Shown in pieces: positions 3,846-60,151 of a DNA stretch of 64,000 bases; position 1 is the first letter of the stretch, and each line of letters opens with the position of its first letter. Location of the stretch: positions 62,001 to 126,000 of the forward strand of contig NZ_BJXA01000018.1 in the NCBI RefSeq assembly GCF_007990755.1, read 5' to 3'. The translations under genes and the position numbers were made by a program. Below the pieces are notes generated by a model, which was given only the letters and a program-made list of their open reading frames with translations, did not search any database and was not told the origin of the DNA. Origin of the DNA: Nocardia ninae NBRC 108245. GTDB taxonomy: Bacteria > Actinomycetota > Actinomycetes > Mycobacteriales > Mycobacteriaceae.

Positions 3846-5201
3846 ATGGCGGACAACGAAGTCGACCATTCAGCAGCAGCCCGGCAGTTGCCGGGAACCC
3901 GAATAACCGCCGATTCGCGACTGGCCTTGGACGGCGGAAATCCCATTCGCCGGACCCCCTGGCCGACCTACGATCGAGGCGCGGTCTGCGTCCACCCCGA
4001 TGACGAGGAAGCCGCACTACGCGCGATCCGCAGTCACCTCTACTTCCGCTACGACTATCGCCCGCCGCACGAAACCGAATGCGGCAAGTTCGAGGCGGAC
4101 CTGTGCCGCTATTTCGACTGCCGCCACGCCCTGGCGACCTCCAGCGGCACCACCGCGCTGGCCTTGGCCATCATGGCCGCGGGTATCGCGCCGGGCAGCC
4201 TGATCGCCTGTCCCGGTTTCACTTTCGCCGCCACCCCGAGCGCCATCATCCTGGCCGGCTGCACGCCCTTCCTCGTCGACGTCGACGAGAACCTGCACCT
4301 GGACGTGGCCGACCTGCGCAGCCGATGGACCCCGCAGGTCAAGGGCATCATGGTGGTGCACATGCGCGGCTTCGCCGGCGACATGGGCGCGCTGCTCCGT
4401 TTCGCCGACGACATGAACGTGCCGGTCTTCGAGGACGCGGTCCCCGCCCTCGGCGCGGAACTCGACGGCCGTAAACTCGGCACCTTCGGCCTGGCCGGCG
4501 CGTTCAGCACCCAATCGGACAAGTCGCTCAACAGCGGCGAGGGCGGCTTCCTGGTCACCGACGACAGCGCGCTGTTCGCCCGTGCCACCGTGCTTTCCGG
4601 CGCCTACGAGGGACGGCTGCGGCGGCACTTCCCCGACGGCGAGCCGCCCATCGCCACCGATCTGGACCTGCCGCTGCTCAGCTTCCGGATGGACGAGATC
4701 CGGGCCGCGCTGCTACGGGCGGAGCTAGGCAGGCTGCCGGTGCGCTTGGCCGCGTTCCGGCGCAACTACGACTATGTGGCCTCGGCATTGGCCGACGTCG
4801 CCGGGATTCGGATCCGCCGGCCGGTGGCGCCCGGCGCCTATCTCGGTGAGGCGTTCATCTTCCAGGTGCCGAACGGCCGCGCGCAGTGGTTCGCGCAAGC
4901 GCTGTGCCACGAGGGCATCGAGGCCCGCAACCTCGGTTCGGACTCCGACCGCAATATCCGTGCGTTCTGGAACTGGCGGTTCATGTTCACCGGGATGGAG
5001 ACCGCGGCCATCAAGGAGTTGCTGCCGAACGCGACACGCTATCTGCAGCGGGCAGTGGACATTCCGCTGTCCTCCACGTTGTCGCAGGCGGACTGTGACC
5101 ACTTGGTCGCCGCGGTGCGCAAAGTCGCGGATGCGCTGGCGGCCACCGAGACCCTCGACAACGAAGAAGGTTCCAGTTCCCCCTGGGCCGGCTGGCGATG
5201 A
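3846..5201 (+). CDS. DegT/DnrJ/EryC1/StrS-family aminotransferase
   Basis: A 451-residue PLP enzyme of the family that aminates keto-sugars or makes aminohydroxybenzoate-type precursors. The SSGTTALALA helix (PLP phosphate binding), the aspartate in VFEDAVPALGAE and the lysine K226 in QSDKSLNSGEGG mark an intact active site. The open frame extends far upstream, but the ATG at 3846 with AGGGA 8 nt upstream begins a normal family N-terminus. It is the first gene of a seven-gene operon and overlaps the MFS gene by 4 bp. The C-terminus carries a short polar tail ending in SSSPWAGWR, possibly disordered. The substrate (sugar or carbocycle) is unknown. Confidence 0.9.
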   Translation: MADNEVDHSAAARQLPGTRITADSRLALDGGNPIRRTPWPTYDRGAVCVHPDDEEAALRAIRSHLYFRYDYRPPHETECGKFEADLCRYFDCRHALATSSGTTALALAIMAAGIAPGSLIACPGFTFAATPSAIILAGCTPFLVDVDENLHLDVADLRSRWTPQVKGIMVVHMRGFAGDMGALLRFADDMNVPVFEDAVPALGAELDGRKLGTFGLAGAFSTQSDKSLNSGEGGFLVTDDSALFARATVLSGAYEGRLRRHFPDGEPPIATDLDLPLLSFRMDEIRAALLRAELGRLPVRLAAFRRNYDYVASALADVAGIRIRRPVAPGAYLGEAFIFQVPNGRAQWFAQALCHEGIEARNLGSDSDRNIRAFWNWRFMFTGMETAAIKELLPNATRYLQRAVDIPLSSTLSQADCDHLVAAVRKVADALAATETLDNEEGSSSPWAGWR

Positions 5202-6364
5202 CGGCTTCGTCCGATACCGGGGCGTTCCCCCGGCTGGCGCTTGCCGGAGTGTTCGGCGGGCTGTTCTGCGGCTACCTCGGCCTGGCCGCGGCGATTCCGG
5301 TGCTGCCCGGGCACGTCCGCGATGAGTTCGGCGCGGGTGATCTCGCGGTGGGCCTCGCGGTCACGTCCACCGCGCTCACCGCGCTGCTCACCCGTCCGAT
5401 CTTCGGCGGCCTGGCCGATCGGTACGGACACCGCAACGTCATGCAGTTCGGTGCGCTCGCCATCGCGGCGGGCGGCCTGCTGTACTTTCTGCCGCTCGGC
5501 CTGGTCGGACTGATCATGGTGCGCCTGCTGCTCGGCGTCGGTGAGGCCGCGCTGTTCACCGCGGGTGCGGTCTGGACCGTCACGCTCGCGCCGCACCACC
5601 GTCGTGGGCAGGTGATCGGGCTCTACGGCGTTGCCATGTGGGGCGGCATCTCGCTGGGCACCGCGCTCGGCGCGGCCATCCGGCACTTCGGCATCACCGC
5701 GGTGTGGAGCTTCTGCTCCGTCGCACCGCTCATCGGTCTCGTGCTGATCAGCATCGTCGCGCCGCAACCGCACGCCACGCCGACCAGCGGGCGCGGGCTG
5801 CTGCTGCGGCCCGCCGTGTTGCCCGGTCTCGGTCTCGCATTGGGGGCCGCGGGCTACGTCGGCCTGGCCGCGTTCGTCATCCACGGGCTGCAAGTGCGCG
5901 GAATCGACTCGGGCGTGGTCGTTTTGAGCACCTTCAGCGCGGTGTACGCGGGCACCCGTTTGTTCATCGGGCACCTACCGGACAAGTACGGACCGCGGCG
6001 GGTCGCTGCGTGGTGCGGCCTGGGCGAGGCGGCCGGGCTGCTGATCATCGCGTGGGCGCCGAATCTGCCGGTGGCGGTGCTCGGGGCCGTGGTGATGGGC
6101 GTCGGATTCTCGCTGCTGCACCCGTCGTTGGCGTTGATGGTCATGAACAACACCGACAGCGCCAAACAGGGGGCCGCGCTCGGCGCCTACACCTCGTTCT
6201 GGGATCTGGGGTTGTTCGTGTGGGGGCCGGTGACCGGCGCGATCGCCACCGGGTTCGGCTACCCGGCCGTCTTCGTGGTCGGCGCGGGCTGCGCGCTGGC
6301 GGCCTCGGCACTGGCCATGACGATCCGGCAAGCGGTGACCACGGAGAAGGCGGTCGACAGGTGA
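5198..6364 (+). CDS. MFS transporter, probable exporter of the encapsulin-cluster product
   Basis: A 388-residue membrane protein with about 12 hydrophobic segments. The loop 2/3 motif FGGLADRYGHRN and its repeat in the second half, GHLPDKYGPRR, are MFS hallmarks. The size matches 12-TM drug efflux or sugar-phosphate type carriers. ATG overlaps the aminotransferase stop (ATGA), and its own stop overlaps the GTG of the sulfotransferase, so it is translationally coupled on both sides. Export of the pathway product is an inference from this position. Confidence 0.88.
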   Translation: MTASSDTGAFPRLALAGVFGGLFCGYLGLAAAIPVLPGHVRDEFGAGDLAVGLAVTSTALTALLTRPIFGGLADRYGHRNVMQFGALAIAAGGLLYFLPLGLVGLIMVRLLLGVGEAALFTAGAVWTVTLAPHHRRGQVIGLYGVAMWGGISLGTALGAAIRHFGITAVWSFCSVAPLIGLVLISIVAPQPHATPTSGRGLLLRPAVLPGLGLALGAAGYVGLAAFVIHGLQVRGIDSGVVVLSTFSAVYAGTRLFIGHLPDKYGPRRVAAWCGLGEAAGLLIIAWAPNLPVAVLGAVVMGVGFSLLHPSLALMVMNNTDSAKQGAALGAYTSFWDLGLFVWGPVTGAIATGFGYPAVFVVGAGCALAASALAMTIRQAVTTEKAVDR

Positions 6365-7296
6365 CGAACACAGTGAAGGTCCTGTGCATTACCGGCTGGT
6401 GCCGCAACGGCAGCACCATTATCGGCAACATCCTCAATGAGATTCCGGGCTTCTTCCACGTCGGCGAGCTGCACTTCCTGTGGAAGAACGCGGCGGGTCG
6501 CGGGGTGAACGAGGAATGTGGCTGCGGGCGCAAACTGGTCGACTGCCCGTTCTGGTCGACCATTCTGCCGATCGGGCAACCGGCGGGCAGCACCCTGGTG
6601 GAGCACGCCGACGCCGTGATCCGGCGGCAACTCGGCAGCGTCCGGACCCGGCACACCTGGCGGGTGCTCGGTCGTGGACTGCACAACGAGCGGATCCGTG
6701 CGCATGCGGCGCTGATGACTCAGGTTTACCAAGCCATCGCGGAGCGCAGCGAGTCACGGGTGATCGTGGATACCACGAAGATTCCCGGTGAAGCGGCGTT
6801 GCTGGCACACCTCGACGGCATCACCCCGTACTACGTCCATCTGGTGCGTGACCCGCGTGCGGTGGCCCAATCCTGGAGCAGACCAAAGGATTACGTGTAC
6901 GCGATGGCGCCGGGTAAGAGCACCGGGTACTGGACCGGCTTCAATCTCGCCACGCACGCGATCACCCGGCGCTATCCGGAACGGTCCATGTTCCTGCGGT
7001 ACGAGGACTTCATCGCGGATCCGGCGGGCACGATCGACCGCCTGTTGCGGCTGTGTGCGACGGACCCCGCGCTCAACCCCGTCACCGATCGGACGGTCGA
7101 ATTGCATACCAATCACACGGTTACCGGGAACCCAGATCGTTTCAAGATCGGCGAAACCGTGGTGCGTCCGACCGACGACTCCTGGCGGCGCGGGCTGCCG
7201 AAGTCGGCCAGGCGAACGGTCGCGGCCCTGTCGTGGCCGCTGTCGCGCCGATACGGCTACGAATTCGGTGCCGTGGACTCGACGGGAAAGGGCTAG
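6361..7296 (+). CDS. PAPS-dependent sulfotransferase
   Basis: A 311-residue protein of the Sulfotransfer_1/_3 type. The 5'-phosphosulfate loop is GWCRNGST (residues 12-19) and the 3'-phosphate motif is VRDPRAVAQSW (from residue 162). A FLRYEDFIADP stretch near residue 215 is also typical. It would move a sulfo group from PAPS to a hydroxyl or amine of a small molecule. The N-terminal half has a cysteine-rich segment (CGCGRKLVDCPFW) seen in many bacterial members. It starts with GTG inside the MFS stop. Sulfotransferases are a recurring partner in clusters that carry natural-product encapsulins, as I recall from the encapsulin survey literature. Confidence 0.9.
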   Translation: MTNTVKVLCITGWCRNGSTIIGNILNEIPGFFHVGELHFLWKNAAGRGVNEECGCGRKLVDCPFWSTILPIGQPAGSTLVEHADAVIRRQLGSVRTRHTWRVLGRGLHNERIRAHAALMTQVYQAIAERSESRVIVDTTKIPGEAALLAHLDGITPYYVHLVRDPRAVAQSWSRPKDYVYAMAPGKSTGYWTGFNLATHAITRRYPERSMFLRYEDFIADPAGTIDRLLRLCATDPALNPVTDRTVELHTNHTVTGNPDRFKIGETVVRPTDDSWRRGLPKSARRTVAALSWPLSRRYGYEFGAVDSTGKG

Positions 7297-7300
7297 CCGC

Positions 7301-8128
7301 GTGGATCTGGGGCTGGAGAACAAGGTCGCGCTGGTGACGGGCGGATCCAGTGGGATCGGCTTGGCTATCGCGCGGGAATTGGCTGCCGAGGGTGCCCACG
7401 TCGCGATCGGGGCGCGCGACCCAGGACGGCTCGCGGCCGCCGAGCGTTCCGTAAAAGAGGTGGCGCGTGCTCGTGTGCATGTCACGAGCGTGGACATCAC
7501 CGACAGCGCGGCGACCCGCCGGTGGATCGATGAGGTTGCCGCCGAATTCGGCGGACTGCACATCGTCGTCATCAGTGGTGGCACGCCGCCGACCGGCCAC
7601 GCGACCGCCTTCGCGACAGCGGACTATCGGGCCGCGGTCGATGCGGTGCTGATCCCGGCGGTCGATGTGGCGCTGAGCGCGTTGCCTCATCTCCGGGACG
7701 CCGGTTGGGGCCGAATGCTTTTCGTGGCCTCGGAGACGGCGAGCGTCCCCATCAGCGGTCTGGCCATGTCCGGCGTCACCCGCACGGCCCTCGTTCGATT
7801 CGCCCAGTCGCTGGCCGCTGAGGTCGGCCGGGACGGCGTCACGGTCAATGTGCTCGCGCCCAGCGCAACTCGCACTCCCCTGCTGGAACGTGTTGTGGCG
7901 CAACGCTCTACCGAGGGACCGAGCGAAGCACAGTTCGAGGCGATGGGCAGGCACACGGCGGTGGGACGGATCGCCCGGCCGGCGGAAATGGCCGCCGTGG
8001 CCACCTTTCTGGTGAGCGCGCGGGCCTCCTACCTCACCGGCACCGTGCAGCTGGTCGATGGCGGTGCGAGCGTGCTCGGACCGTCCGCGGCCCATCTGCC
8101 CTGGCAGGCCAGCGCGAAACCGGAGTGA
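7301..8128 (+). CDS. SDR-family protein with degenerate Tyr/Lys active site
   Basis: A 275-residue classical-length short-chain dehydrogenase/reductase. The cofactor motif TGGSSGIG (residues 13-20) and the C-terminal YLTGTVQLVDGGA are intact. The catalytic serine S144 is present, but 13 residues later, where tyrosine is expected, there is S157, and four further on, where lysine is expected, R161. Such SxxxR variants form a known subgroup whose reaction is unclear; it may bind NAD(P) without normal oxidoreductase chemistry. The C-terminus extends past the usual SDR end by about 16 residues (ending LPWQASAKPE). GTG start, 4 bp after the sulfotransferase stop. Confidence 0.88.
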   Translation: MDLGLENKVALVTGGSSGIGLAIARELAAEGAHVAIGARDPGRLAAAERSVKEVARARVHVTSVDITDSAATRRWIDEVAAEFGGLHIVVISGGTPPTGHATAFATADYRAAVDAVLIPAVDVALSALPHLRDAGWGRMLFVASETASVPISGLAMSGVTRTALVRFAQSLAAEVGRDGVTVNVLAPSATRTPLLERVVAQRSTEGPSEAQFEAMGRHTAVGRIARPAEMAAVATFLVSARASYLTGTVQLVDGGASVLGPSAAHLPWQASAKPE

Positions 8129-8175
8129 CAGCACTGCTCTCGGCACCGTTGCCGATGACACGGAAGGAATCACAC

Positions 8176-9051
8176 ATGCTGAAGACCGAAGGCGTCAAAG
8201 AGACGCTGGCGCAGGTTGTCGCGGACCGGAAGAAGGAGCCTTCGCCGGGGCGGATGTTCGTCGAGGCCTGCGCGAAAGACGGCCTCGACGCCGCCGTCGA
8301 GTACGACGTGACCATCACCGACTCGCTGACCAGCTCGCGTCGCAAACCGCGCTACCCGGCGCGCAATATGCTCAAAGCCGTTGACCTGTCCCGTGATCCG
8401 CGCGAGTTCTACTGGCACGAGAGCGCACCTGGCGCGGCGGACACTCCCATCGAAGGTGCCGACGTGCGCCGCGAACTGGCCAGCCGGTTCCACAAGTCGC
8501 CGATCCCCGAACTGCTCACCACTACGGCCTGGGTGCAGGTGCCGCCGCAGCTGTGGGAGGACCCGGAGACGTTCGAATCCTTCATCAACTACCGGCTGAT
8601 CGTCCGGCTCTGCACCGCCGAGAACCACACGATCATCAGCGGCGAGGGCGGCCTGCTGAACATGCCGGGGATCGAACGGATGACCTCCCCCGGGCCGTTC
8701 GCCTCGACGATCCTGCGCGCCTGCAACGAGGTCGAGCAGATGGGTGGCACCGCCGACGGCATGATCATCAACCCGGTCGACTACTACCGCGCCATGGGTA
8801 CCGGAAGGCTGATGGACGATCTCGAGCAGAACGGCATGTTCATCGTGCGCACCCGCTTGGTCGAGCCCGGCACCGCCCTGGTGGGCGACTTCGGCCACGG
8901 CGCACAGCTTTTCGACGCCGGACGGTCGGTGATCCGCTTCGCCGAGCCGCCGCCGGGCACCTTCAGCGAACCCGGTGCCGCGGTCATGGCGGAGATCTAC
9001 GAGCGGGTCGTGGTGAACCTACCCACCAACTTCTTCGTCGTCACCGTGTAG
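8176..9051 (+). CDS. HK97-fold shell protein (encapsulin, natural-product type)
   Basis: A 291-residue protein whose second half follows the phage_capsid (HK97 major capsid) pattern: NHTIISGEGGLLNMPGI (residues ~154-170), then TADGMIINPVDYYRAM, LVEPGTALVGDFGHGAQLFD and the terminal ERVVVNLPTNFFVVTV. The start is the ATG with GGAAGGA 6 nt upstream. There is no portal, protease, terminase or tail gene, and both neighbours are biosynthetic enzymes in one operon. This argues for a nanocompartment shell rather than a prophage remnant. Encapsulins of this kind (Family 3) occur inside actinobacterial and myxobacterial biosynthetic clusters; their cargo is largely unproven. Which neighbour is enclosed here is unknown. 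Confidence 0.85.
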   Translation: MLKTEGVKETLAQVVADRKKEPSPGRMFVEACAKDGLDAAVEYDVTITDSLTSSRRKPRYPARNMLKAVDLSRDPREFYWHESAPGAADTPIEGADVRRELASRFHKSPIPELLTTTAWVQVPPQLWEDPETFESFINYRLIVRLCTAENHTIISGEGGLLNMPGIERMTSPGPFASTILRACNEVEQMGGTADGMIINPVDYYRAMGTGRLMDDLEQNGMFIVRTRLVEPGTALVGDFGHGAQLFDAGRSVIRFAEPPPGTFSEPGAAVMAEIYERVVVNLPTNFFVVTV

Positions 9052-9084
9052 GTCGGGTTCGTGGCGAGTGAGGGGGCGGCTCCC

Positions 9085-10359
9085 GTGCGCAGCGACCCTG
9101 ATGTGGTGGTTGTCGGCGGCGGGGTCGCCGGTTTGTTCTGTGCCTATCACCTGCGCCGGAGCGGGGCCTCGGTGACTGTTCTGGAGCGCGGGGCGCTCGG
9201 CGGGCCGCAGTCGTGTTCGTACGGGAACACCGGTTTCGTCGGCACCCACGGTGCCGCGCCGCTGGCCGAGCCCGGCATGCGGTCGCTGCGCACGCTCGGG
9301 ATGTTGAGTCCGGGTGCGGCGTTTTATGTCAAGCCGCGACTCGACGGTGAATTGCTGCGCTGGCTCGGGCATTTCGGCCGGGCCTGCTCGGCGACGGCTG
9401 CGGCGGCCGGTTTTCGGGCGCTGGTCGGGATGAAGAAGCGCAGCCTCGAGATACTGCTCGGACTGTGTGAATCATCCAGCATCGCTGCCACTTTCGAGTC
9501 GCCCGGCATAGTGCTGACTTACCGGACCGCAGAAGGGTTCGCGGCTGCGAGTCGATCGGTGGCACGGACCGTCGCGAGCGGAGTGCCGCTGCGGGTCCTC
9601 GGACCGGGGGAACTCGACGAGCTCGAGCCGAAGACCCGGTTCGCAATCCGTGGGGCGCTGTACAACCCGGAGGGGGCTTACCTGCGCGTACCGGAGTTCG
9701 TGATCGAATTCGGTCGGCTGCTGCGCGAGATGGGCGTCGAGATCTGCGAGCGCACCGACGTGCTCGGCTTCGAGGTCCAAGATCTGAAAGTCGCAGGGCT
9801 GCATACGAACCGCGGGGAACTTCGCCCCCGTGACGTGGTAATCGCGGCGGGTGCGTGGTCGACCGAGTGTGCTCGGCTGGCGGGGATCGGGCTGACGCTG
9901 CAACCGATCAAGGGTTACAGCGTCACCATGGACATGCCGCCGAGCGGTCCCAGCAGGCCGATATTGCTGAGTGAGGGCCGGGTGGCGATGGTTCCGCTGG
10001 GCAACCGGCTGCGCATCGGCGGCAGGCTCGAGCTCACCGGGATGAACAACGGCATCTCCGCCCGGCGTGTCCAAGGGATGCTGCGGGCCGTCCGCGAATA
10101 CCTGCCGGAGTTGGAAGAAACGCAGACCCGCGAAACCTGGAGCGGTTTGCGTCCGTGCACGCCGGACGGGCTGCCGCTGATCGGGCGCACCGGTCTGCGC
10201 AACCTCCTGGTCGCGGTCGGCTACGGCCATATCGGGATGGGGCTCGCGCCCGCCGGTGGCGAGTTCATCAGCCACATCCTGGCGGGCGAACAACCGATCA
10301 CCGATCCGGCCCCGCTGCGGCCGGATCGGTTCGGCAGCACCGAATCGACAAGGCGATAA
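9085..10359 (+). CDS. FAD-dependent oxidoreductase, D-amino acid/glycine oxidase (DadA/DAO) family
   Basis: About 424 residues. The N-terminal dinucleotide motif VVVGGGVAGLFCAYHLRRSG is followed by the DAO-family C-terminal signature SGLRPCTPDGLPLIG and VAVGYGHIGMGLAPAGG. It would oxidise an amine C-N bond, usually of a D-amino acid or N-substituted glycine. Two GTG starts are possible, 9061 and 9085; the second has GAGGGGG about 8 nt upstream and begins at the usual distance from the Rossmann motif. It lies 33 bp after the shell gene and is followed at once by the racemase-family gene, a pairing that suggests amino acid chemistry. Confidence 0.87.
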   Translation: MRSDPDVVVVGGGVAGLFCAYHLRRSGASVTVLERGALGGPQSCSYGNTGFVGTHGAAPLAEPGMRSLRTLGMLSPGAAFYVKPRLDGELLRWLGHFGRACSATAAAAGFRALVGMKKRSLEILLGLCESSSIAATFESPGIVLTYRTAEGFAAASRSVARTVASGVPLRVLGPGELDELEPKTRFAIRGALYNPEGAYLRVPEFVIEFGRLLREMGVEICERTDVLGFEVQDLKVAGLHTNRGELRPRDVVIAAGAWSTECARLAGIGLTLQPIKGYSVTMDMPPSGPSRPILLSEGRVAMVPLGNRLRIGGRLELTGMNNGISARRVQGMLRAVREYLPELEETQTRETWSGLRPCTPDGLPLIGRTGLRNLLVAVGYGHIGMGLAPAGGEFISHILAGEQPITDPAPLRPDRFGSTESTRR

Positions 10360-10361
10360 CA

Positions 10362-11078
10362 GTGGCCGAAAATACTAAGGGCGAGCACGCAATCGGCGTC
10401 CTCTGCCTGGACACCGCGTTCACCAAGATCCCGGGGCATATCCGCAATCCGACGACCTTCGACTTCCCGGTCGTCTACCAGGTGGTGCAGGGCGCGACAC
10501 CGCAGCGGATGGTGACCGAGGCCGATCCGACACTGCTGGAGCCGTTCATCATCGCCGCGAAGGAGCTCGAATCCCGTGGCGTGGCGGCGATTACCAGCGG
10601 ATGCGGTTTCCTCGTCATCTTCCAGCAGCAGCTGGCCGATGCCGTGGGGATCCCGCTGTACAGTTCCAGCCTCATCCAGCTACCGATGGTGCACCGCATG
10701 CTCAGCGCGAATCGCAGAGCCGGCCTGCTCGTTGCCAAGAAGGAATCGCTCACCCGGCGTCATCTGGCGGCGATCGGCGGTGAATCGATACCCATTTGCG
10801 TCGCCGGGATGGATGCCCAGCCGGAGTTTCGCGAGGTCATCCTGGAGGGACGCCGCACCCGACTCGACGCCGAGCGCCTCGGAAACGAGGTACTCACCGA
10901 GATCGAACAACTGGCCTCAGCCAACCCCGACATGGGCGCACTCGTCATCGAATGCACCGACCTGGCCCCCTACAGCCACGCCATCCAAGACCGCCTCGGC
11001 CTCCCCGTCTTCGACATCGTCACCCTCACCGAGATGGTGCATCGAAGCCTCAGCCACCGGCCGTTTCCCCGGAAATAG
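10362..11078 (+). CDS. aspartate/glutamate/hydantoin racemase-family protein
   Basis: A 238-residue protein with two cysteines in the places used by cofactor-independent racemases: ITSGCGFLV (about residue 84) and VIECTDLAPYS (about residue 195). The spacing and the paired half-domains fit the Asp/Glu racemase superfamily, which also includes maleate isomerase and arylmalonate decarboxylase. It would move a proton at the alpha carbon of an acidic or N-carbamoyl amino acid. GTG at 10362 follows the oxidase stop by 2 bp. It is the last gene of the encapsulin operon. The exact reaction cannot be fixed from sequence. Confidence 0.85.
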   Translation: MAENTKGEHAIGVLCLDTAFTKIPGHIRNPTTFDFPVVYQVVQGATPQRMVTEADPTLLEPFIIAAKELESRGVAAITSGCGFLVIFQQQLADAVGIPLYSSSLIQLPMVHRMLSANRRAGLLVAKKESLTRRHLAAIGGESIPICVAGMDAQPEFREVILEGRRTRLDAERLGNEVLTEIEQLASANPDMGALVIECTDLAPYSHAIQDRLGLPVFDIVTLTEMVHRSLSHRPFPRK

Positions 11079-11118: not shown

Positions 11119-11856
11119 GTGACCGACGCTACCGACCTGATGCGGATGTATCTGGCCGATCCAGACCAGCCTTTCCCGCCTGTCGAGCTCGCCGATCCGT
11201 CCGGACTGGTCGCTTTCGGCGGGGACCTGTCGCCAGAGCGGCTGTTGAGCGCCTATTCCGCAGGAATCTTCCCCTGGTACAACCCCGGCGAAACGATCCA
11301 CTGGTACTGCCCGGACCCGCGCAGCATCCTCGTGCCGACCGATCTGCGGGTGAGTAAGTCCTATCGCCGATCCGTCGCCAACACCGACTACGCGGTAACC
11401 ATGGATCGCGCCTTCGCCGAGGTGATGTCGAATTGCGCCGCACCGCGGGACAAGGAGACCGGAACCTGGATCGGCCCCGACATGCAGGCCGCCTACCAGC
11501 GACTGCACCACCTCGGTCACGCGCACTCGGTCGAGGTATGGCGCAACGGCGACCTGGTCGGCGGCCTCTACGGCGTCGCATGCGGCCACTCCTTCGCCGG
11601 CGAGTCCATGTTCTCCCGCGCCCGCGACACCTCCAAGATCGCGCTGTATTGGCTCTGCACCCAACTGGCCGCCTGGAACTTCCCCCTCATCGACTGTCAG
11701 GTCAGCTCCACCCACCTCACGTCCCTCGGCGCCATCGACCTCCCCCGCGCGGACTACCTGCACCTACACACCCAGGCAGCCGCCCGCCCCGCCCTCCCCG
11801 GCCCTTGGCAATTCGAAATCTCAGTCCCCAATTCCCCCAACCACCTACCGGCGTGA
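11119..11856 (+). CDS. aat: leucyl/phenylalanyl-tRNA--protein transferase
   Basis: A 245-residue enzyme that adds Leu or Phe from aminoacyl-tRNA to the N-terminus of proteins with basic N-termini, marking them for ClpAP/ClpS degradation (N-degron pathway, cytosol). Diagnostic stretches are FPPVELADPSGLVAFGGDLS, YSAGIFPWYNPGE, WYCPDPRSIL, GLYGVACGHSFAGESMFSR and LIDCQVSSTHLTSLGA. Length is normal. GTG start at 11119. It lies 40 bp after the racemase gene but is a housekeeping gene and probably not part of that pathway. Confidence 0.95.
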   Translation: MTDATDLMRMYLADPDQPFPPVELADPSGLVAFGGDLSPERLLSAYSAGIFPWYNPGETIHWYCPDPRSILVPTDLRVSKSYRRSVANTDYAVTMDRAFAEVMSNCAAPRDKETGTWIGPDMQAAYQRLHHLGHAHSVEVWRNGDLVGGLYGVACGHSFAGESMFSRARDTSKIALYWLCTQLAAWNFPLIDCQVSSTHLTSLGAIDLPRADYLHLHTQAAARPALPGPWQFEISVPNSPNHLPA

Positions 11857-50652: not shown

Positions 50653-50820
50653 CCGAGCCGTACTCAACGAACCGCACCCGGCGCTGCTCAGGATCAACGT
50701 TCGGCTGATGATCGGATTACGTCGACGGAAATAGACTCGCGGTCAGTGCCGGTGGAAGGTTTCGTCAGTGAACAGAGCAGATTCCGGTGGGAGCAGCGAC
50801 GGTTCGCCCGGGCAGTCCCC

Positions 50821-51945
50821 GTGAGCGCGCCGCGAGTGCTGATCGTCGGCGGCGGTATCGCGGGCCTCACCCTCGCGGCGGCGTTGCGGCGCAACGGAAT
50901 CGAACCGACGGTCGTGGAACGGGTCGCTAGGTACGGCGACGTCGGATATGTGATCACGCTGTGGCCGATGGGCCGACAGGTCATGGACCATCTCGAATTG
51001 AGCCGGCAGTTCGACCAGCGCACCGTGCCGATCAACACCTACTCGACGCATGTCGACGGCGGCCGCGCACTGCGAACCTTCGACTTCCGCGGGCGTCTCG
51101 GCGACGGTGTCCCGCGCGCGCTCAAACGGTCCGAACTGATCGAGTTGCTCGGATCCTATGGCGGAGGCACCGACGTCCGGATGGCACGCACCGTGGCCGC
51201 CATCGAGCAGGACGACCACCTCGTCGTCGTGACCTTCGATGACGGCGCGACCGCCGAATACGACGTGGTGGTCGGGGCCGACGGCATCGACTCGGGCATG
51301 CGCAGGCTCGTCGCGGGCGACGTGCCCATGCACCGCACCGGGTTGCGGCTGTGGACCTGGTGGACGTCGGGCGCCAGTATCGCCACGGACCAGTCGCACG
51401 AGTTCTGGGGCAAGGCACGGTATTTCGGCTACAACCCGACCACCGGGCCGGTCGGCTGCGCGGCAGCGCTCCCGGCATCGGGCGCCCCGGCGACCCCGAA
51501 GCAGCTCCGCGACCGCCTCGCCGACGTTGCGGGCCCGATGAATTGGATGATCGACGCACTCGCCGACATCGACGAGATCGGCGCCTTCGACCTCGACGAT
51601 CTGCGAATGCCACATTGGCAGTTCGGCCGGGTGGTGTTGCTCGGCGACGCGGCCGCCGCCTTCCTACCGACAGCGGGCGTCGGGGCGTCGATGGCGATGG
51701 AGTCGGCTCTCGTGCTCGCCGAAGAACTCTCGAAAGTAGACGCGGCAGGGGCAGCCGATGCATTGCGGCACTATGTGCAACGCCGCCGTACCCGGGTCGA
51801 CGCGGTGCAGAACCGGTCACGGTGGCTCATCCCGGTGATGCTGCGCCGCACCGGGTTCGGCACCGCGGTGCGCAACGTCCTACTGCGCGCGATGCCCGAG
51901 AACCTGGTCATCTCGGAGATCGCGCGCTGGAATCCGCAACCATGA
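50821..51945 (+). CDS. FAD-dependent monooxygenase (PHBH-like)
   Basis: About 374 residues. LIVGGGIAGLTLAAALRRNG is the FAD motif, DVVVGADGIDS the DG motif, and GRVVLLGDAAAAFLPTAGVGASMAMES the GD motif of class A flavin hydroxylases. It hydroxylates or epoxidises an organic substrate with NAD(P)H and O2. GTG 50821 is chosen because a paralogue at 55371 starts at the same point; GTG 50746 is also possible. It opens the second biosynthetic cluster. The ITLWP block near residue 45 is shared with that paralogue. Confidence 0.88.
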   Translation: MSAPRVLIVGGGIAGLTLAAALRRNGIEPTVVERVARYGDVGYVITLWPMGRQVMDHLELSRQFDQRTVPINTYSTHVDGGRALRTFDFRGRLGDGVPRALKRSELIELLGSYGGGTDVRMARTVAAIEQDDHLVVVTFDDGATAEYDVVVGADGIDSGMRRLVAGDVPMHRTGLRLWTWWTSGASIATDQSHEFWGKARYFGYNPTTGPVGCAAALPASGAPATPKQLRDRLADVAGPMNWMIDALADIDEIGAFDLDDLRMPHWQFGRVVLLGDAAAAFLPTAGVGASMAMESALVLAEELSKVDAAGAADALRHYVQRRRTRVDAVQNRSRWLIPVMLRRTGFGTAVRNVLLRAMPENLVISEIARWNPQP

Positions 51946-51947
51946 GC

Positions 51948-52874
51948 TCACGGTCCGACCTCCCCCGGATAACCGAAATACCGTACGGTCGGCGCCGACT
52001 CGCCCCGGCCGATGGATTTCGCCAGCACCCGGCTCGGCCCGACCTCGACCAGCCGCGCGCACCCTAAACGAGCGAGCGTCTGGATAACGTCGGTCCAGCG
52101 CACCGGCGCGGTGAGTTGCCGCTCGGCCAGGTCGCGCCACCGCGCGGCGGTATACAGTCCCGCGTCCACATTGGCGACCACCGCCGTGCCGGTCGCACGG
52201 AATTCGACGTTGTCCAAGGCCGCACGCAGTTGCGGTGCCGCAGTTGCCATGAGCGGGGTATGAAATGCCCCGTCGACGGCGATCCGCACGACCTTCAGCC
52301 GAGACTCCCGCGCTGCCCGCGCCACCGCCTCGACGCCGTCGACCGTGCCGGACACCACGACCTGCCGCGGGCCGTTCACGTTGGCCACCCAGACCTGCGC
52401 ACCTTCGGAACGCGCTGCGGCGGCGAACTCTTCGACGACCGCACCGCTCGCCCCGAGAATCGCCGCCATCGTCCCCGGCCGCTGCCCGGTGGCCGTCCGC
52501 ATCGCCGCACCACGCGCGGCGACCAACCGCGCACCGGCGCGCGCCGATATCGCCCCTGCCGCCACCAACGCCGTGTACTCCCCGAGACTGTGCCCGGCGC
52601 ACGCGTGCACCCGGCCGATCATGCGGTGCTCGATCAGATAGTCCATCGCCATCAAGGACATCGTGAAGATCGACAACTGCGCCGAATCGGTGCTCCGCAA
52701 ACGCTGTTCGCCCGTCCGCAATACCAGCTCGGCTATGTCGTAGCCGGTCCATTCGGACACTTCACCGACGATCCGCCACTGCGCCGTATCGCGCCACCGC
52801 TCGCCCATGGCGGGCCGCTGTGCGCCCTGGCCGGGAAAGATCACCGCACAGTCGGCGGACCGGGTATCGAGCAC
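51948..52874 (-). CDS. malonyl-CoA:ACP transacylase (FabD-like)
   Basis: A 308-residue acyltransferase. CAVIFPGQGAQ opens it; the nucleophile is S96 in GHSLGEY and the catalytic histidine is H205 in GAFHTPLM. QLTAPVRWTDVIQTL and ARLVEVGPSRVL follow. It loads malonate onto an acyl carrier protein, presumably the ACP at 59483 or one outside the window. GTG start at 52874. It is on the minus strand, divergent from the AfsA-like gene, the only cluster gene on this strand. Confidence 0.93.
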   Translation of the reverse strand: MLDTRSADCAVIFPGQGAQRPAMGERWRDTAQWRIVGEVSEWTGYDIAELVLRTGEQRLRSTDSAQLSIFTMSLMAMDYLIEHRMIGRVHACAGHSLGEYTALVAAGAISARAGARLVAARGAAMRTATGQRPGTMAAILGASGAVVEEFAAAARSEGAQVWVANVNGPRQVVVSGTVDGVEAVARAARESRLKVVRIAVDGAFHTPLMATAAPQLRAALDNVEFRATGTAVVANVDAGLYTAARWRDLAERQLTAPVRWTDVIQTLARLGCARLVEVGPSRVLAKSIGRGESAPTVRYFGYPGEVGP

Positions 52875-53049
52875 AGCCCGAGCGTATCGAGAACTGCGGC
52901 ACCGGTATTCGGTCAGACGTTGAGCTCGCCTCAGCGAACGCACGATGATCCGGGGCCGGTCACGTCGATACGCTCGCGGTAGCTCGAATCGCGAAGCCCG
53001 GTGTGCGACACCGGCCGCGGCACGGACAGCGCCTCGACGAGAGGAAACC
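52875..53049. promoter_or_regulatory. divergent promoter region with paired 12-bp inverted sites
   Basis: CGAGCGTATCGA (52879-52890) and its exact reverse complement TCGATACGCTCG (52965-52976) flank this divergent spacer. Seen from each gene's strand they are the same 12-mer. One arm lies just before the acyltransferase GTG and the other 73 bp before the AfsA-like gene. They are candidate sites for one regulator. Confidence 0.55.
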
Positions 53050-54063
53050 GTGGACGAAACAGCAGTGACCACCCGCCCCGCGCCGGAGGACACCCGAGCC
53101 GCCTTGGCGGCGTTGAGCTTCGAGCAGACGGTGCCGCGCGCCCTGGTGCATCGTGCCGCGGTGAACGAGGTGTTCCTCACCGACGGTGCGGCCATCGGCA
53201 AACGCGAATGGGCCGTCGCGGCCATGCTCCCCCGCAGTCACATGCTGTTCAACGACGGCGGCAACCCCGATTATCTGGACACGATCGCGATCATGGAGGT
53301 CACCCGGCAGGTGACCGAGTATGTGGCGCACCGTTTCGTCCATGTGCCGGACAACCAGTTCCTGGTCTTCCGCGACATGCGGATCGATGTGTTCGCGCCC
53401 GAGCGGTTGCGGGCCGGGCCCGCGCCGGCGCGCGTGCTGACCATCGTCAATGCGCGCACCTCCGAGCGGCTCGCGCAGCACCCGGTGAGCATCATCGTCG
53501 ACGGCCACGAGTGCGGGCGGGCCGGCGGGCGGTGGCTACCGTTGCCGCTGCACTACTACGAATACATTCGTGAGCGGGCGCGGCAGAAGACCCTGGCCCG
53601 CAGCCCGGAACCGGCGCGCCCGGTCGACCTGTCGGCGATGCTCGCACCGGAGCGCGTGGGCCGCGGACAGCCACGAAATATCCTCCTCGCCAACGGCATT
53701 GCGACCGAGGCCGGCACCATGACGTTCCTGCTCGTGGTCGACCAGGCCCATCCGGTGTTCTTCGACCATCCGATGGATCACGTTCCCGGCATGTTGATGC
53801 TCGAGGCGGCCAGACAGGCGAGCCTGGCGACGCTGTCCGAGCATCGGGGCACCGATCCGCGCCGGTGCCTGATCGCCGGCTGCGAAGTCGACTTCGGCAA
53901 TTTCTGTGAACCAGATCTGGTCGCCGGCTGCCGCGCCGAGATCGTCGGCTCCGGCGATCCGGGCCCGAGTCTGCGGCATCGGGTGCGCGTCACCTTCGAA
54001 CAGGCGGGAGAGTCGCTCGGCGACATCACCCTCGAGGTGCTCGACCAATCCGGCTCCGGCTGA
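53050..54063 (+). CDS. AfsA-family (gamma-butyrolactone synthase-like) protein
   Basis: A 337-residue protein with two hotdog-like AfsA repeats. FEQTVPRALVHRAAVNEVFLTDG opens the first; DTIAIMEVTRQVTEYVAHRF follows; the second repeat has HPVFFDHPMDHVPGMLMLEAARQAS. AfsA/ScbA proteins join a beta-ketoacyl chain to dihydroxyacetone phosphate on the way to signalling butyrolactones. It could do that here or use the same fold for another acyl transfer in the cluster. GTG 53050 has GAGAGGA upstream. No butyrolactone-receptor (ArpA-like) gene is adjacent. Confidence 0.85.
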   Translation: MDETAVTTRPAPEDTRAALAALSFEQTVPRALVHRAAVNEVFLTDGAAIGKREWAVAAMLPRSHMLFNDGGNPDYLDTIAIMEVTRQVTEYVAHRFVHVPDNQFLVFRDMRIDVFAPERLRAGPAPARVLTIVNARTSERLAQHPVSIIVDGHECGRAGGRWLPLPLHYYEYIRERARQKTLARSPEPARPVDLSAMLAPERVGRGQPRNILLANGIATEAGTMTFLLVVDQAHPVFFDHPMDHVPGMLMLEAARQASLATLSEHRGTDPRRCLIAGCEVDFGNFCEPDLVAGCRAEIVGSGDPGPSLRHRVRVTFEQAGESLGDITLEVLDQSGSG

Positions 54064-54075
54064 CGGGGGCGCCAG

Positions 54076-55383
54076 GTGAGGACACCGGAACGAATCGCGG
54101 TGGTGGGTGCCGGGGTCTCCGGTATCGCCGCCGCCCTGGCACTGCACCGTGCGGGCCGCACCGTCGAGATACTGGAACGCGCGGATCGGATCGGTGGCCG
54201 CCTCGGCTTCGCCGACCTGAACGGCGGCGAGGTGCTGCTCGGCGGCAAGAACATCGGGCGCAACTACTCGCGATTGCGGGCCATGCTCGACTCGCTCGGC
54301 GGCACCGGCTACGAGCCCTTCGGCATCAATACCTCGCGGCTGGTCGCGGGCAGGCTCGTCAGTCTGGACAGCGACAACCGGGCCGAGACGCTGCACGGCA
54401 TTCTGCGCATGTGCGACTGGCGGGATCTCGGCACCCTCGACGGCCTCGCCCGTAAAGTGCGGTCGGCGGACTCGGCCCGGTTCCTCGGCTCCGATCTCGC
54501 CAGGAAGCTCGGCCGCCACGACGATCGGCCACTGTCCGAGCATTTCGGCAAGCGCACCACCGCCAACTTCTTGCGGCCGATCACGGTCCGGATGAACGGC
54601 ACGGAGCCGGACGAGGCCTATTACGGCAACTTTCCCACCAATATGGGGATGCTGCTCGACAAGTTCGAGCAGCCGACGGTCGGGCTGTCCACCTTGCTGA
54701 CCCGTATCACCGCGTTCGTCGAAATCCATTTCCGCACAACGGTTACTCGCATCACGCAGGGCGATGACAGCGTAGTTCTCGACCTCGCCGACGCGGCCGG
54801 TCGGCCGAGACAAGCGCGGTATGACGCCGTCGTCGTCGGCACGCCCGCCTACGCCGCAGCACCGCTACTCGCACCGCTGTCCGACCTGCTGCACTCGGTG
54901 CGGTACTTCCCGGCCACCGTCGCGGTCGTGCGATACGTGCACGACGTCTTCGCCGCCGATGTCCGCGCCATCGCACTGGACGGCCAGCCGTGCAGCAACG
55001 CAGGGAGTTACGGCAGCGAAACGAGAAACATTGTCCGATACACCTTCTCGGGCAGATACGGCCGATTGACCGATCCCACCGAAACCGAGGTCTTGGACCT
55101 GGTCAGCGACGCCGAACAACAGCTGCGCACGCACCTCGGCACCGCGCGACAGCCGAGAACAGCAGCGGCGGTGCGTCATTGGCCGCAGGCCTACTGCGGC
55201 TACCTACCGCATTACAGCGACTTCCTGGACACGCTCACCGCGGCAGCCGCCGCATTCCCCCGTATCGCCCTGGCGGGTGACTATCTACTCGGCACCTCGC
55301 TCGAGGCCTGCTGCCGCTCCGGCGAACGTGCTGCCGCAGCACTGCTTTCGGTGCCGCAGGGAGCCCTTCGGTGCGAATCCTGA
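54076..55383 (+). CDS. FAD-dependent oxidoreductase (amine oxidase/protoporphyrinogen oxidase-like)
   Basis: 435 residues. The FAD motif is VVGAGVSGIAAALALHRAGR, followed by LERADRIGGRLGF; the C-terminal FAD region has FPRIALAGDYLLGTSLEACCRSGERAA. This is a two-domain amine-oxidase-like flavoprotein as used in desaturation or amine oxidation. GTG 54076 is 12 bp after the AfsA-like stop. The end overlaps the next gene by 13 bp. Confidence 0.85.
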   Translation: MRTPERIAVVGAGVSGIAAALALHRAGRTVEILERADRIGGRLGFADLNGGEVLLGGKNIGRNYSRLRAMLDSLGGTGYEPFGINTSRLVAGRLVSLDSDNRAETLHGILRMCDWRDLGTLDGLARKVRSADSARFLGSDLARKLGRHDDRPLSEHFGKRTTANFLRPITVRMNGTEPDEAYYGNFPTNMGMLLDKFEQPTVGLSTLLTRITAFVEIHFRTTVTRITQGDDSVVLDLADAAGRPRQARYDAVVVGTPAYAAAPLLAPLSDLLHSVRYFPATVAVVRYVHDVFAADVRAIALDGQPCSNAGSYGSETRNIVRYTFSGRYGRLTDPTETEVLDLVSDAEQQLRTHLGTARQPRTAAAVRHWPQAYCGYLPHYSDFLDTLTAAAAAFPRIALAGDYLLGTSLEACCRSGERAAAALLSVPQGALRCES

Positions 55384-56501
55384 TCGTCGGCGGCGGGATC
55401 GCCGGGCTCACCCTCGCGGCCCGGCTGCGCCAGCGCGGGCTGCGCCCCACCGTGATCGACACCATCAGCAGTTACGGCCGCGCCGGAACGGCGATCACGC
55501 TGTGGCCGACCGGCAGTCGCGTTCTGCACGGCCTCGGTCTGTGGAACTCCTTCATCGACACCAGCGTGCCGCTGTGGCGCTATGTCGTGCACGATCGGCA
55601 CGGCGAGGTCCTGCGCACCTTCGACCTGGAGCGCCTCGAGGCGCGCGACGGGTTGCCGCGCGTCACCCCGCGCGCCGAGCTGCTTGCCGTGCTCGAGTCG
55701 GCGAACGGCGGCACCCCCGTCGATCTGGAAACCGAGGTGCAGCGGATGCGCCAGATCGGGTCCACCGTGCGGGTCCGGTTCGACGACGGCAGAGAACGCG
55801 ATTTCGACCTGGTCGTCGGTGCGGACGGTCTGCGCTCGCGTACCAGGGCGCAAGCCGAACTCGACACCGCCGAACATCGGTTCGGCTGGCGGCTCTGGTG
55901 GTGGTGGGCGCAGCGCGGCGTCACCCCACCGGGCGAACTACACGAAACGTGGGGGCTGCGGCGGATCATGTCCGCGTACCCGACCCAGGATCGGGTCGCC
56001 TGCTTCGTGGCGATCGCCGGGTCGTTCGGCGGCGCGAACCCCTCGGCGGGCACCGGGGAGTGGCCACCGAGCGACCCGCGCCGCACCGACGAAGGCTGGA
56101 TTCTGCGCACCCTGCCCGACGCCGATCGGGTCGACTGGCTGGATCTGGTGGAAGTCACCGTCCCCCAATGGGTTCGGGGCCGGATCGTGTTGCTCGGCGA
56201 TGCTGCCGCCGGGCTGGTGCCGACCACGGGGATCGGCGCGTCGCTGGCGATGGAGTCGGCTGCGGTGCTCGATGACGAACTGGTTCGCGTCGACACCGCG
56301 CACATCGACATCGCCCTCACCCGGTTCGCCCGGCGGCGCATGCCCCGTGTCGACGCCGAACAGCACCGGGCCAGGGTGGTCGGCGAGTTCATGATGCTGC
56401 AATCGCCGATCGCCCGGCACTGCCGCGACCTGGGACTGCGCTACTTCCCGACACCGGTCATCTGCCGCGAGCTCGACCGCTGGAACAACATCCCGACCTG
56501 A
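55371..56501 (+). CDS. FAD-dependent monooxygenase, paralogue of the 50821 gene
   Basis: 376 residues. VRILIVGGGIAGLTLAARLRQRG at the N-terminus and DLVVGADGLRSR and GRIVLLGDAAAGLVPTTGIGASLAMES later are the three class A flavin-hydroxylase motifs. It shares the ITLWP block and a RWN-P-like end with the gene at 50821, so the two are duplicates within one pathway. GTG 55371 overlaps the previous gene by 13 bp. Confidence 0.9.
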   Translation: MRILIVGGGIAGLTLAARLRQRGLRPTVIDTISSYGRAGTAITLWPTGSRVLHGLGLWNSFIDTSVPLWRYVVHDRHGEVLRTFDLERLEARDGLPRVTPRAELLAVLESANGGTPVDLETEVQRMRQIGSTVRVRFDDGRERDFDLVVGADGLRSRTRAQAELDTAEHRFGWRLWWWWAQRGVTPPGELHETWGLRRIMSAYPTQDRVACFVAIAGSFGGANPSAGTGEWPPSDPRRTDEGWILRTLPDADRVDWLDLVEVTVPQWVRGRIVLLGDAAAGLVPTTGIGASLAMESAAVLDDELVRVDTAHIDIALTRFARRRMPRVDAEQHRARVVGEFMMLQSPIARHCRDLGLRYFPTPVICRELDRWNNIPT

Positions 56502-56526
56502 AACACATCAAGCCGAGGGAGCCCCC

Positions 56527-57150
56527 ATGACAACGACGCAGCTGGACGACATCTCCGGACTCTTCCGGTGCGAGACGGTTTCGCGCACCGACGCCACCGC
56601 GCAGTTGCTCGCGCTGACCAAACAGCTGCGCGGCCGCGCCGACGAGGACGTGTACACGGTGCATCAGCACGTCGACTGCCCGCCCGAGGTGCTCTACGAC
56701 TACCTGCTCGATATCCGCAGCGTCGAGGAATTCACCTACAGCATGCGCAATTTCCGGCCCGCCGGGACGGACGGCCGGTACGTGGGTGAGGACGCGACGG
56801 ACCCGGCCACCAAGATTCATCTGCGCATCCATGGCAATGCCGAGGTCGGGACCGTCGACTACGAATCGGCATTCGACCAGGGCGACGATCTGTGGATGGT
56901 GTTCTGCGGCCGCGTCCTGTCCGCCCGCCGGGTGCAGAACCGCGGCGGGGCACTGGTGTCGTGGACGATCTGGCGCCATCCGTACTACGCCAAGAACCCG
57001 TACCCGCACCTGTCACCACGGCGCGGCCGCGTGTGGCCCGGGTCGTTCTGGCCACTCTTCCACGCCTGCGACGTGCTGGAACTGCGTAATATGCAACAGA
57101 TTCTCGAACATCGCCTGCGGGTAGGTTCGGCACCCGTCGGCGGGCGGTGA
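56527..57150 (+). CDS. SRPBCC (START-like) cyclase/aromatase-like protein
   Basis: A 207-residue protein with the helix-grip pattern: VYTVHQHVDCPPEVLYDYLLDIRSVEEF (polyketide cyclase type), a middle beta region and a C-terminal helix LFHACDVLELRNMQQILEHRL. Family members direct ring closure in polyketides or just bind hydrophobic ligands. AGGGAG lies upstream of ATG. It lies between the second monooxygenase and the methyltransferase. Confidence 0.78.
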   Translation: MTTTQLDDISGLFRCETVSRTDATAQLLALTKQLRGRADEDVYTVHQHVDCPPEVLYDYLLDIRSVEEFTYSMRNFRPAGTDGRYVGEDATDPATKIHLRIHGNAEVGTVDYESAFDQGDDLWMVFCGRVLSARRVQNRGGALVSWTIWRHPYYAKNPYPHLSPRRGRVWPGSFWPLFHACDVLELRNMQQILEHRLRVGSAPVGGR

Positions 57151-57156
57151 GCCGGC

Positions 57157-57933
57157 ATGGCCGACGGCTACGGCACCGCAGCGGAGTTCTACGATATCGC
57201 CGGTCGCCCCTACTGGAAGCCGCGAACAAGCGCGTTGACGCAGGCGTTGGCCGCTGCGGCACAAACGAATTCGCCGATCGTGGATATCGGTGCGGGCACC
57301 GGGCTCGTGGTCGAAATCGTCGGCACCGCACTCACCGAAGTATCGATCCTCGCGATCGAACCCTCGCCCGCCATGCGCGCCGCGCTCGCCAGTCGAGTAC
57401 TGGCGAATCCGGCGCTTGCGCGGCGGGTGACCATCGAAGCGACCGCCCTCGCGGACACGACCCTGCCCGACCGGCTCGGTGGCGTGGTCGCGTGTGGCGT
57501 GCTCGGGTACTTCACGCCGGACGAGCGGCGACGGCTGTGGCGGTTGCTCGCCGACCGCCTCGCCCCGGACTGCTGCGCGGTGGTGGATGCCGCACCGTTT
57601 CCCGCGACCCGCGCGGTCCGGCCGATTCGGGTCGGTGTCGCGAGATTTGGTGCGCGACAGCATGAAATCTGGCTCGCCTCACGGCCGGTCGACGTCGAGG
57701 GACGGATCGAACTGACTACGACATGCCGGGTACTGCGGGACGGACAGACCATCCGGGAGTCGGTGAGCACCCAGCAGTGGTGGGCACTCGATATGCGAAC
57801 GATCGCCGCCGAGGCCACCGAGGCGGGACTGCGCTGCCGCCGCGCCGGATGGGACCTCGCGACCCTGTCCGCCGACCGGACAGCGCCTCTCGATGCTCAG
57901 CGGAGCGCCGCGGCGACCTCCATCAAGCGTTGA
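57157..57933 (+). CDS. SAM-dependent methyltransferase
   Basis: 258 residues. YGTAAEFYDIAGRPYWK begins it; the SAM motif is VDIGAGTGLVVEIVG (from residue 42), followed by an acidic IEPSPAMRA and GVVACGVLGYFTPDERRRLW. A class I methyltransferase for an O-, N- or C-site on the cluster product. ATG is 6 bp after the SRPBCC stop. Confidence 0.88.
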   Translation: MADGYGTAAEFYDIAGRPYWKPRTSALTQALAAAAQTNSPIVDIGAGTGLVVEIVGTALTEVSILAIEPSPAMRAALASRVLANPALARRVTIEATALADTTLPDRLGGVVACGVLGYFTPDERRRLWRLLADRLAPDCCAVVDAAPFPATRAVRPIRVGVARFGARQHEIWLASRPVDVEGRIELTTTCRVLRDGQTIRESVSTQQWWALDMRTIAAEATEAGLRCRRAGWDLATLSADRTAPLDAQRSAAATSIKR

Positions 57934-58060
57934 GACAGGAGTGACCATTCGGCCGAGGAAACAGGGCCGTACCCAAGGATATCGTCGTCTCAGACGGATC
58001 GGTTCTCTCGGAACATCTTCCACCCCGGTCAGCTTCCGCAGTGCCGACGCAAGGAGTATC

Positions 58061-59428: not shown

Positions 59429-59482
59429 ACCCGTTACCGCACAGAGCAACCCACCATGTACACCGATCCGAGGAGGAACGCC

Positions 59483-60148
59483 GTGGGATCCATGCTGAGT
59501 TCGGAGGAACTCTCCGATATCGTCCGGAGCGCGGTCGCGCTGGCACTCGCCGTCGAACCGGACGACGTGACATCGGACAAATTGCTGATCCCGGAGCTCG
59601 GCGCGGAGTCGATCGACTTCCTGGACATCACGTTTCGGCTCGAGCAATTCCTGCCCATCTCCGTACCGCGCGACGACCTCAACGAACAGGCCGAGGACGT
59701 GTTCGGCGCGGGCGCCGCGGTCGACACGCTGCGCAGGCTGACACCGTTGGGCGCCTACCTGGTCCGGGAACGGCTGCTCGGCGTCGACCTGAGCAAGGTC
59801 GAGCCCGGGATGCGGGTCGAGGACGTCGCCGCGCTCTGGACCGTGCGGACCTGGAGTGGGCTGTGCCAGCGGCTACTCGACACCATCCCGGAAAAGTGCC
59901 AGGTCTGTGGCGGCGGCCGAACCTTCGTGCGCAATGCGGACGGCGAGTTCCACGCCGAATGCGACAGTTGCGCAACCGAACTCACCGCGACACCCGGAGA
60001 CGAACTGAACCAGCAGTGGTTCGAGGAGATCCGGGAACTCGACGAGGTCGCGCGACTGGTCGAGCAGAGCCGCGCGCAAGCGGCGGAAGCGGAAGCCGCG
60101 ACCGTCCAGGCGAGCGCACCAGCACCGGCCAGCGCCGTCGCGGAGTGA
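59483..60148 (+). CDS. acyl carrier protein fused to a zinc ribbon
   Basis: A 221-residue protein. The N-terminal ACP carries S43 in LGAESIDFLDI, the phosphopantetheine site. After ~50 residues there is a second helical part (LRRLTPLGAYLVRERLL), then a CxxC...CxxC zinc ribbon: C139, C142, C160, C163. The C-terminus is Ala/Glu-rich. GTG 59483 has AGGAGG 6 nt upstream and is preferred over ATG 59456. It would carry the growing chain for the ketosynthases that follow; the ribbon's role is unknown. Confidence 0.85.
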   Translation: MGSMLSSEELSDIVRSAVALALAVEPDDVTSDKLLIPELGAESIDFLDITFRLEQFLPISVPRDDLNEQAEDVFGAGAAVDTLRRLTPLGAYLVRERLLGVDLSKVEPGMRVEDVAALWTVRTWSGLCQRLLDTIPEKCQVCGGGRTFVRNADGEFHAECDSCATELTATPGDELNQQWFEEIRELDEVARLVEQSRAQAAEAEAATVQASAPAPASAVAE

Positions 60149-60151
60149 CCG

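Follow-up and report, generated by a model that had tools for sequence, protein, structure and literature searches.

Operon layout and gene content

The window analysed here is a stretch of 64,000 nucleotides from the soil bacterium Nocardia ninae NBRC 108245 (contig NZ_BJXA01000018.1, positions 62,001 to 126,000; genome of 9.70 Mb in 204 contigs), and the subject of this work is a seven-gene operon on its plus strand that includes the gene for a virus-derived Family 3 encapsulin shell protein, the one match to this shell in the genome. In order, the genes encode a DegT/DnrJ/EryC1-type pyridoxal phosphate (PLP)-dependent aminotransferase (AT, 3846–5201; Pfam PF01041, DegT_DnrJ_EryC1, 1.4e-57), a major facilitator superfamily (MFS) transporter that is probably an exporter, its direction being presumed (5198–6364; PF07690, MFS_1, 1.6e-43), a sulfotransferase (ST, 6361–7296; PF13469, Sulfotransfer_3, 6.8e-10) dependent on 3'-phosphoadenosine-5'-phosphosulfate (PAPS), a protein with the fold of the short-chain dehydrogenases/reductases (SDR, GTG start, 7301–8128; PF13561, adh_short_C2, 8.7e-39), the shell protein of 291 residues with an HK97 fold (8176–9051; NCBIfam encap_f3, 1.2e-99), an FAD-dependent oxidoreductase of the DadA/DAO type (DAO, 9061–10359; PF01266, DAO, 1.7e-66) and a protein of the Asp/Glu racemase superfamily (RAC, 10362–11078; PF01177, Asp_Glu_race, 7.8e-09). 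DAO scored below the cut-off of the more specific NCBIfam model NF001933 (236.5 bits, cut-off 383) and RAC above that of NF005679 (279.2 bits, cut-off 231), while the nearest solved chain to ST was 4gox (4.2e-06).

The gene boundaries were re-checked and fall in the same places as in the first-pass annotation, which had been made from the sequence alone. The successive junctions are overlaps of 4 and 4 bp followed by gaps of 4, 47, 9 and 2 bp; together with the Pfam and NCBIfam families, this spacing (2–47 bp) confirms the earlier description of six neighbours, small-molecule enzymes and an exporter, packed with the shell gene into a single operon.

Recurrence of the operon in other genomes

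Homologous loci were gathered from one contig scan (30 loci) and from genome searches yielding 20 more with long flanks. Removal of three duplicates (L064 = L002, L065 = L005 and L075 = L027) and of four loci with another shell class (L063, L080, L081 and L082) from these 50 left 43 distinct same-class loci, for which the per-gene tallies were counted by hand from the locus table. The cassette of AT, MFS, ST, SDR, shell, DAO and RAC recurs as a unit in Nocardia, Micromonospora, Streptosporangium, Nonomuraea and Planomonospora, the shell being accompanied by ST in 42, SDR in 42, RAC in 41, AT in 40, DAO in 40 and MFS in 38 of the 43 loci. A neighbourhood comparison across Nocardia and its relatives, which the first-pass annotation had proposed, returns the same set, with some members missing in some loci. 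Because the set recurs in this way, and because all seven genes have dN/dS values of 0.05–0.25 against five Nocardia relatives, the grouping is more than chance.

The gaps in the table are of several kinds. L018 begins inside the operon and also lacks DAO between shell and RAC, L009 and L025 are truncated at contig ends with AT beyond the end, and L012 and L028 have no MFS. At L029 and L030 no MFS, DAO or RAC was found in the flanks examined (a 9.9-kb contig for L029, 10 kb on each side for L030), and AT is on the other strand. AT is likewise on the other strand at L016, an operon with a 78% identical shell in a metagenome-assembled genome labelled Chloroflexi, which reflects either horizontal transfer or mis-binning. 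The nearest locus is that of Nocardia suismassiliense (L002), with 98% shell identity. In one further Nocardia relative (G027; L078, 9637–10509) the shell gene contains an in-frame TAG, which points to a broken gene or to an error in sequencing, and the other operon genes are present.

The spread is patchy. A shell above cut-off was found in 20 of 198 relatives, and across the phylum in 2 of 396 genomes, namely the window's own and G131. AT matched at E ≤ 1e-60 in 18 of the 198 relatives, made up of the 17 that carry a same-class shell and of G093, where the contig stops 20 bases past the sulfotransferase match and the detected shell is of another class; at the same threshold it matched in 2 of 296 phylum genomes, both of which carry the shell. 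RAC was found in the same 17 relatives, with one further match of 36% in G121. Across 37 complete operons, each of the six partners shows pairwise distances correlated with the shell's (r = 0.82–0.94), and, as far as sequence comparison can tell, the shell is inherited with the six other genes as one unit.

ST adjoins the shell beyond this class as well, at 46 of the 47 distinct loci, four of which have other shell classes; at these four it lies within 2 kb of the shell gene (L080, L081 and L082 by similarity; L063 by PF19798 and L081 by PF13469). L080 (9608–10531, genome G093) and L081 (9559–10479, genome G042) are loci of Nocardia relatives with a distant Family 3 shell (24% identity) and an adjoining ST. 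G042 has both shell classes, and G093 has part of the window-type operon on another contig. At L082 (9610–10479) a 35% identical shell is accompanied by ST, a tail-less SDR and a LysX/RimK-type ATP-grasp gene (6773–7624), the last recalling the amino-group-carrier clusters named by Andreas & Giessen (PMC8346489).

Family and fold of the shell protein

The shell protein scored 332.8 bits against the curated Family 3 model NF041188 (cut-off 180), residues 24–286 covering model positions 1–266, and this model matched in none of 14 control genomes. Membership of Family 3 is as firm as sequence allows, and the homology to HK97-type proteins is supported by both profile search and the predicted model; on both points the first-pass annotation stands. 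The Pfam model for phage capsids (PF05065), an annotation ascribed to some Family 3 members, reached 17.3 bits with the window's shell, below its cut-off of 24.2, and 25 of 29 shell members matched it at E ≤ 0.1. Unlike the classical Family 1 encapsulins, such as Myxococcus EncA, none of the 29 matched PF04454 (Linocin_M18) at E ≤ 0.1, identity to two Family 1 chains was 10–11%, and there is no ferritin-like protein or peroxidase among the seven genes. The PDB sequences matching the shell were phage capsids only. No chain among the best 50 structure matches listed is named as Family 3, a list that does not exclude one.

That the shell is the remnant of a tailed-phage capsid, or one recently captured, with no role in the pathway is largely refuted and retains only a very slight probability. 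The shell is homologous to phage capsids, with 27% identity over 95% to major capsid proteins of Microbacterium phages. It differs from these in several respects. A sequence match to the gp5 precursor begins at shell residue 58, equivalent to precursor position 130, so that the 57 preceding residues leave no room for a full delta (scaffold) domain; since the fold alignment already starts at model residue 22, against residue 76 of 8fqk, the protein may retain a remnant of that domain's end. The first-pass annotation had named portal or terminase genes near the gene in close relatives as refuting evidence; in the window, a PHROGs scan of 49 proteins (47 of 62 open reading frames, two of them split; the 15 left out are mostly short or antisense to a longer frame) matched 18 families at E ≤ 1e-5, none with a description as a portal, terminase, protease or scaffold protein and 10 with no description at all. 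The shell is also inherited with metabolic enzymes and constrained (dN/dS 0.06–0.21 against Nocardia relatives), and in 27 of 36 complete loci no other operon protein is as close to its counterpart in the window, MFS ranking first in 6 and AT in 3. Carriage on plasmids was considered and rejected (9 records, 22–23% identity).

Between the Nocardia shells and the others there are two near-fixed differences under the thresholds used, at residues 13 and 181 (Q and R versus E and A/S). The loci divide along the same line in the SDR tail motif described below, which is missing in Nocardia.

Active-site residues

The residues expected at the active site are retained in AT, RAC and ST. Lys226 in the PLP motif of AT is present in 41 of 41 aligned sequences and Cys81 and Cys198 of RAC in 42 of 42, all of them active-site residues in these families; R15, S18, T19, R163 and S171 of ST, presumably the PAPS motif, are present in 43 of 43. 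The SDR is the exception, with Ser144-Ser157-Arg161 where classical SDRs have Ser-Tyr-Lys: in an alignment to sorbose reductase (3ai3) the Tyr and Lys fall at positions 157 and 161. Ser144 is conserved in 30 of 30 operon SDRs and Ser157 and Arg161 in 43 of 43. The first-pass annotation had called this SDR non-canonical, and its active site is indeed odd. That the oddity is specific to shell operons was rejected, because among eight SDRs with no encapsulin match in their flanks (9.8–19.9 kb, some cut by contig ends) six have Ser-Ser-Arg and two Ser-Gly-Arg, making it a trait of the subfamily that is not tied to the shell.

The SDR tail and the neighbouring methyltransferase

The non-Nocardia operons differ from that of the window in two features. 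Between SDR and shell, 28 of 29 non-Nocardia loci and none of 14 Nocardia loci have a methyltransferase gene (MT; Methyltransf_11, 4.2e-21). Clustering had suggested a second shell gene at this position in the relatives; the protein is a methyltransferase by Pfam. A search for an MT orthologue elsewhere in the window's genome gave no clear orthologue, the strongest of 22 hits reaching 38% over part of the sequence. The second feature is a C-terminal SDR tail of 20 residues, present in 26 of 28 non-Nocardia operon SDRs, with the ending [DN]T[YF][TAS] in 23 of the 28 (the exceptions being L011, L016, L028, L030 and L079). The motif is absent from all 15 Nocardia SDRs, including that of the window, which has a portion after the DGG sequence without the terminal motif, and the eight control SDRs have no tail and end 5–6 residues after DGG. 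In 12 tail representatives, chosen below 85% core identity from the 26 with a 20-residue tail, the ending is kept in 10, and the four residues before it vary more. No common motif was seen in the last ten residues of ST, AT or MT among the representatives listed. In a model of a Micromonospora SDR the tail is of low confidence, with block means of 44–64 in the predicted local distance difference test (pLDDT).

A variable linker with a fixed end has the look of a short binding peptide, and the partner may be the shell, MT or the SDR's own partner subunit; by its sequence the tail is a candidate cargo tag or docking peptide. One tentative and, on balance, unlikely reading is that the ending is the cargo-loading peptide of this Family 3 class, which would be the first for the family and would place the SDR step of the sulfated-metabolite pathway inside the shell; Nocardia would then have lost the tag along with MT, and would load its shell differently or have reused it. 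Several findings count against this. Identity over the whole tail is lower than in the SDR core (0.61 versus 0.74), and the case thus comes to rest on the fixed length and the last four residues. The SDR beside the other shell class at L082 ends 5 residues after DGG, with no tail. The motif cannot be a loading signal in Nocardia, because none of the 15 SDRs there carries it though the shell is kept and constrained. Two other candidate signals were seen without controls for comparison: AT has an N-terminal extension of about 25 residues that shows some conservation inside each group, and the DAO ending contains a P-x-x-x-RF stretch whose conservation is loose.

Tail and MT also nearly always occur together (28 loci with MT; a tail without MT at L026), a pairing that fits docking to MT as well as loading. 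The tail could accordingly be a docking peptide for the neighbouring MT, or part of the SDR active site, with the shell loaded by other means or unspecifically, a reading we consider a serious contender at somewhat less than even odds. All 28 MT loci are non-Nocardia, MT and motif are both missing from the 14 Nocardia loci, and the fixed tail length fits a defined intramolecular site; at L026, however, the tail ends in DTYT and the search out to 9 kb gave no MT match, and the tail end is not confidently packed in the monomer model.

Proposed function and cargo

From its enzymes we infer that the operon is biosynthetic. Our favoured interpretation, to which we assign a probability of about 0.5, is that it makes a Family 3 encapsulin together with a short pathway whose product is a small metabolite, derived from an amino acid and probably sulfated, with SDR and ST as the likeliest cargo. 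In this scheme many copies of the shell protein would self-assemble into a hollow icosahedral particle. An amino acid or amino ketone would receive its stereochemistry and oxidation state from RAC, DAO and AT, ST would transfer sulfate from PAPS to an intermediate handled by the SDR-like protein, and the MFS protein would export the product. The SDR/ST pair would most likely be enclosed, since no other partners accompany the shell as constantly as these two. The shell would then keep in a reactive carbonyl or a labile sulfated intermediate until its conversion is complete. Outside Nocardia the SDR tail may serve as a loading or docking signal; in Nocardia, with neither motif nor MT, loading would have to rest on something else.

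Beyond the points already raised about the tail, some of the data sit less comfortably with this interpretation. Within the class the margin is narrow, 42 loci for ST and SDR as against 41 for RAC and 40 for others. The distance correlations fall to r = 0.35–0.89 for Nocardia-versus-other pairs alone, and shared ancestry accounts for part of them. Around L063 and L081 no SDR was found within 9 kb at E ≤ 1e-12, and at L080 just one, 31% identical and 8.4 kb away. An ordinary dehydrogenase step by the SDR is doubtful on sequence grounds, because the protein lacks the Tyr and Lys of the usual triad.

It is improbable, in our estimate, that the cargo is instead the flavin enzyme and/or the racemase, enclosed to keep imines, keto acids or H2O2 inside. 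The DAO and RAC genes come directly after the shell gene (gaps of 9 and 2 bp), they are present in 40 and 41 of the 43 loci, and of all partners DAO has the distances that follow those of the shell most closely (r = 0.94 overall; 0.89 across Nocardia-versus-other pairs). On the other side, mean identity is lower for DAO (0.612) than for any of the other six proteins, and inspection by eye of 15–16 termini per family gave no clear terminal motif except the loose DAO stretch mentioned above. DAO as the principal cargo is disfavoured because there are shells with no DAO in the flanks examined, namely L018, which has RAC, and L029 and L030, where RAC was not found either. Enzymes of the DadA type generally deliver their electrons to the respiratory chain and not to O2. 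For this reason, and because DAO and RAC were not found beside the L029 and L030 shells, the suggestion of the first-pass annotation that the shell retains H2O2 from the flavin oxidase is a weak one.

Neighbouring genes in the window

The gene for Aat (leucyl/phenylalanyl-tRNA protein transferase, 11119–11856), the genome's single copy, starts about 40 bp past the racemase gene. It was considered as an eighth operon gene and rejected, there being no match to it within 9 kb of the shell in any of the 50 loci (3 duplicates included). Upstream, a carotenoid-cleavage-dioxygenase-like gene (1208–2638; NCBIfam NF052295, below cut-off) has a counterpart close to the shell in just two of the 50 loci, L002 and its duplicate L064. 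A second biosynthetic-looking run at 50746–62786 contains two FAD_binding_3 proteins, an AfsA-domain protein, a flavin amine oxidase, a methyltransferase, a class III aminotransferase and two beta-ketoacyl synthases.

Relation to known encapsulin systems

Family 3, or natural product, encapsulins with ST and SDR pairs were described in 2021 in section 9 of Andreas & Giessen (PMC8346489), where the shell is proposed to sequester reactive aldehyde or ketone intermediates. The operon shares with these systems the shell family as assigned by the curated model, the HK97 fold, the occurrence in Actinobacteria and the ST and SDR pair beside the shell, and, as the same logic is proposed there for SDR/ST pairs, it extends a known kind. 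It differs from the clusters of that section in having no nonribosomal peptide synthetase, polyketide synthase or amino-group carrier among its seven genes, and it adds a DegT aminotransferase, a DadA-like enzyme and an Asp/Glu-type racemase, none of which is named there. The first-pass annotation had regarded the pathway as undescribed; this holds for the exact seven-gene set as far as that section goes, and not for the association of ST and SDR with Family 3 shells. According to PMC8346489 and PMC8229669 (both 2021), Family 3 had no known cargo or structure, and neither was found in the later literature covered, most subscription papers and all preprints lying outside that coverage.

To this the present analysis adds the recurrence of the seven-gene cassette as a unit, the presence of MT in most non-Nocardia relatives and the contrast in the SDR tail. 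The operon type is compact (seven genes, with no megasynthase), widespread and conserved, and therefore offers a small system for testing the cargo, the product and the role of the shell, while the contrast between Nocardia and its relatives in the tail provides a concrete hypothesis for loading together with a natural control.

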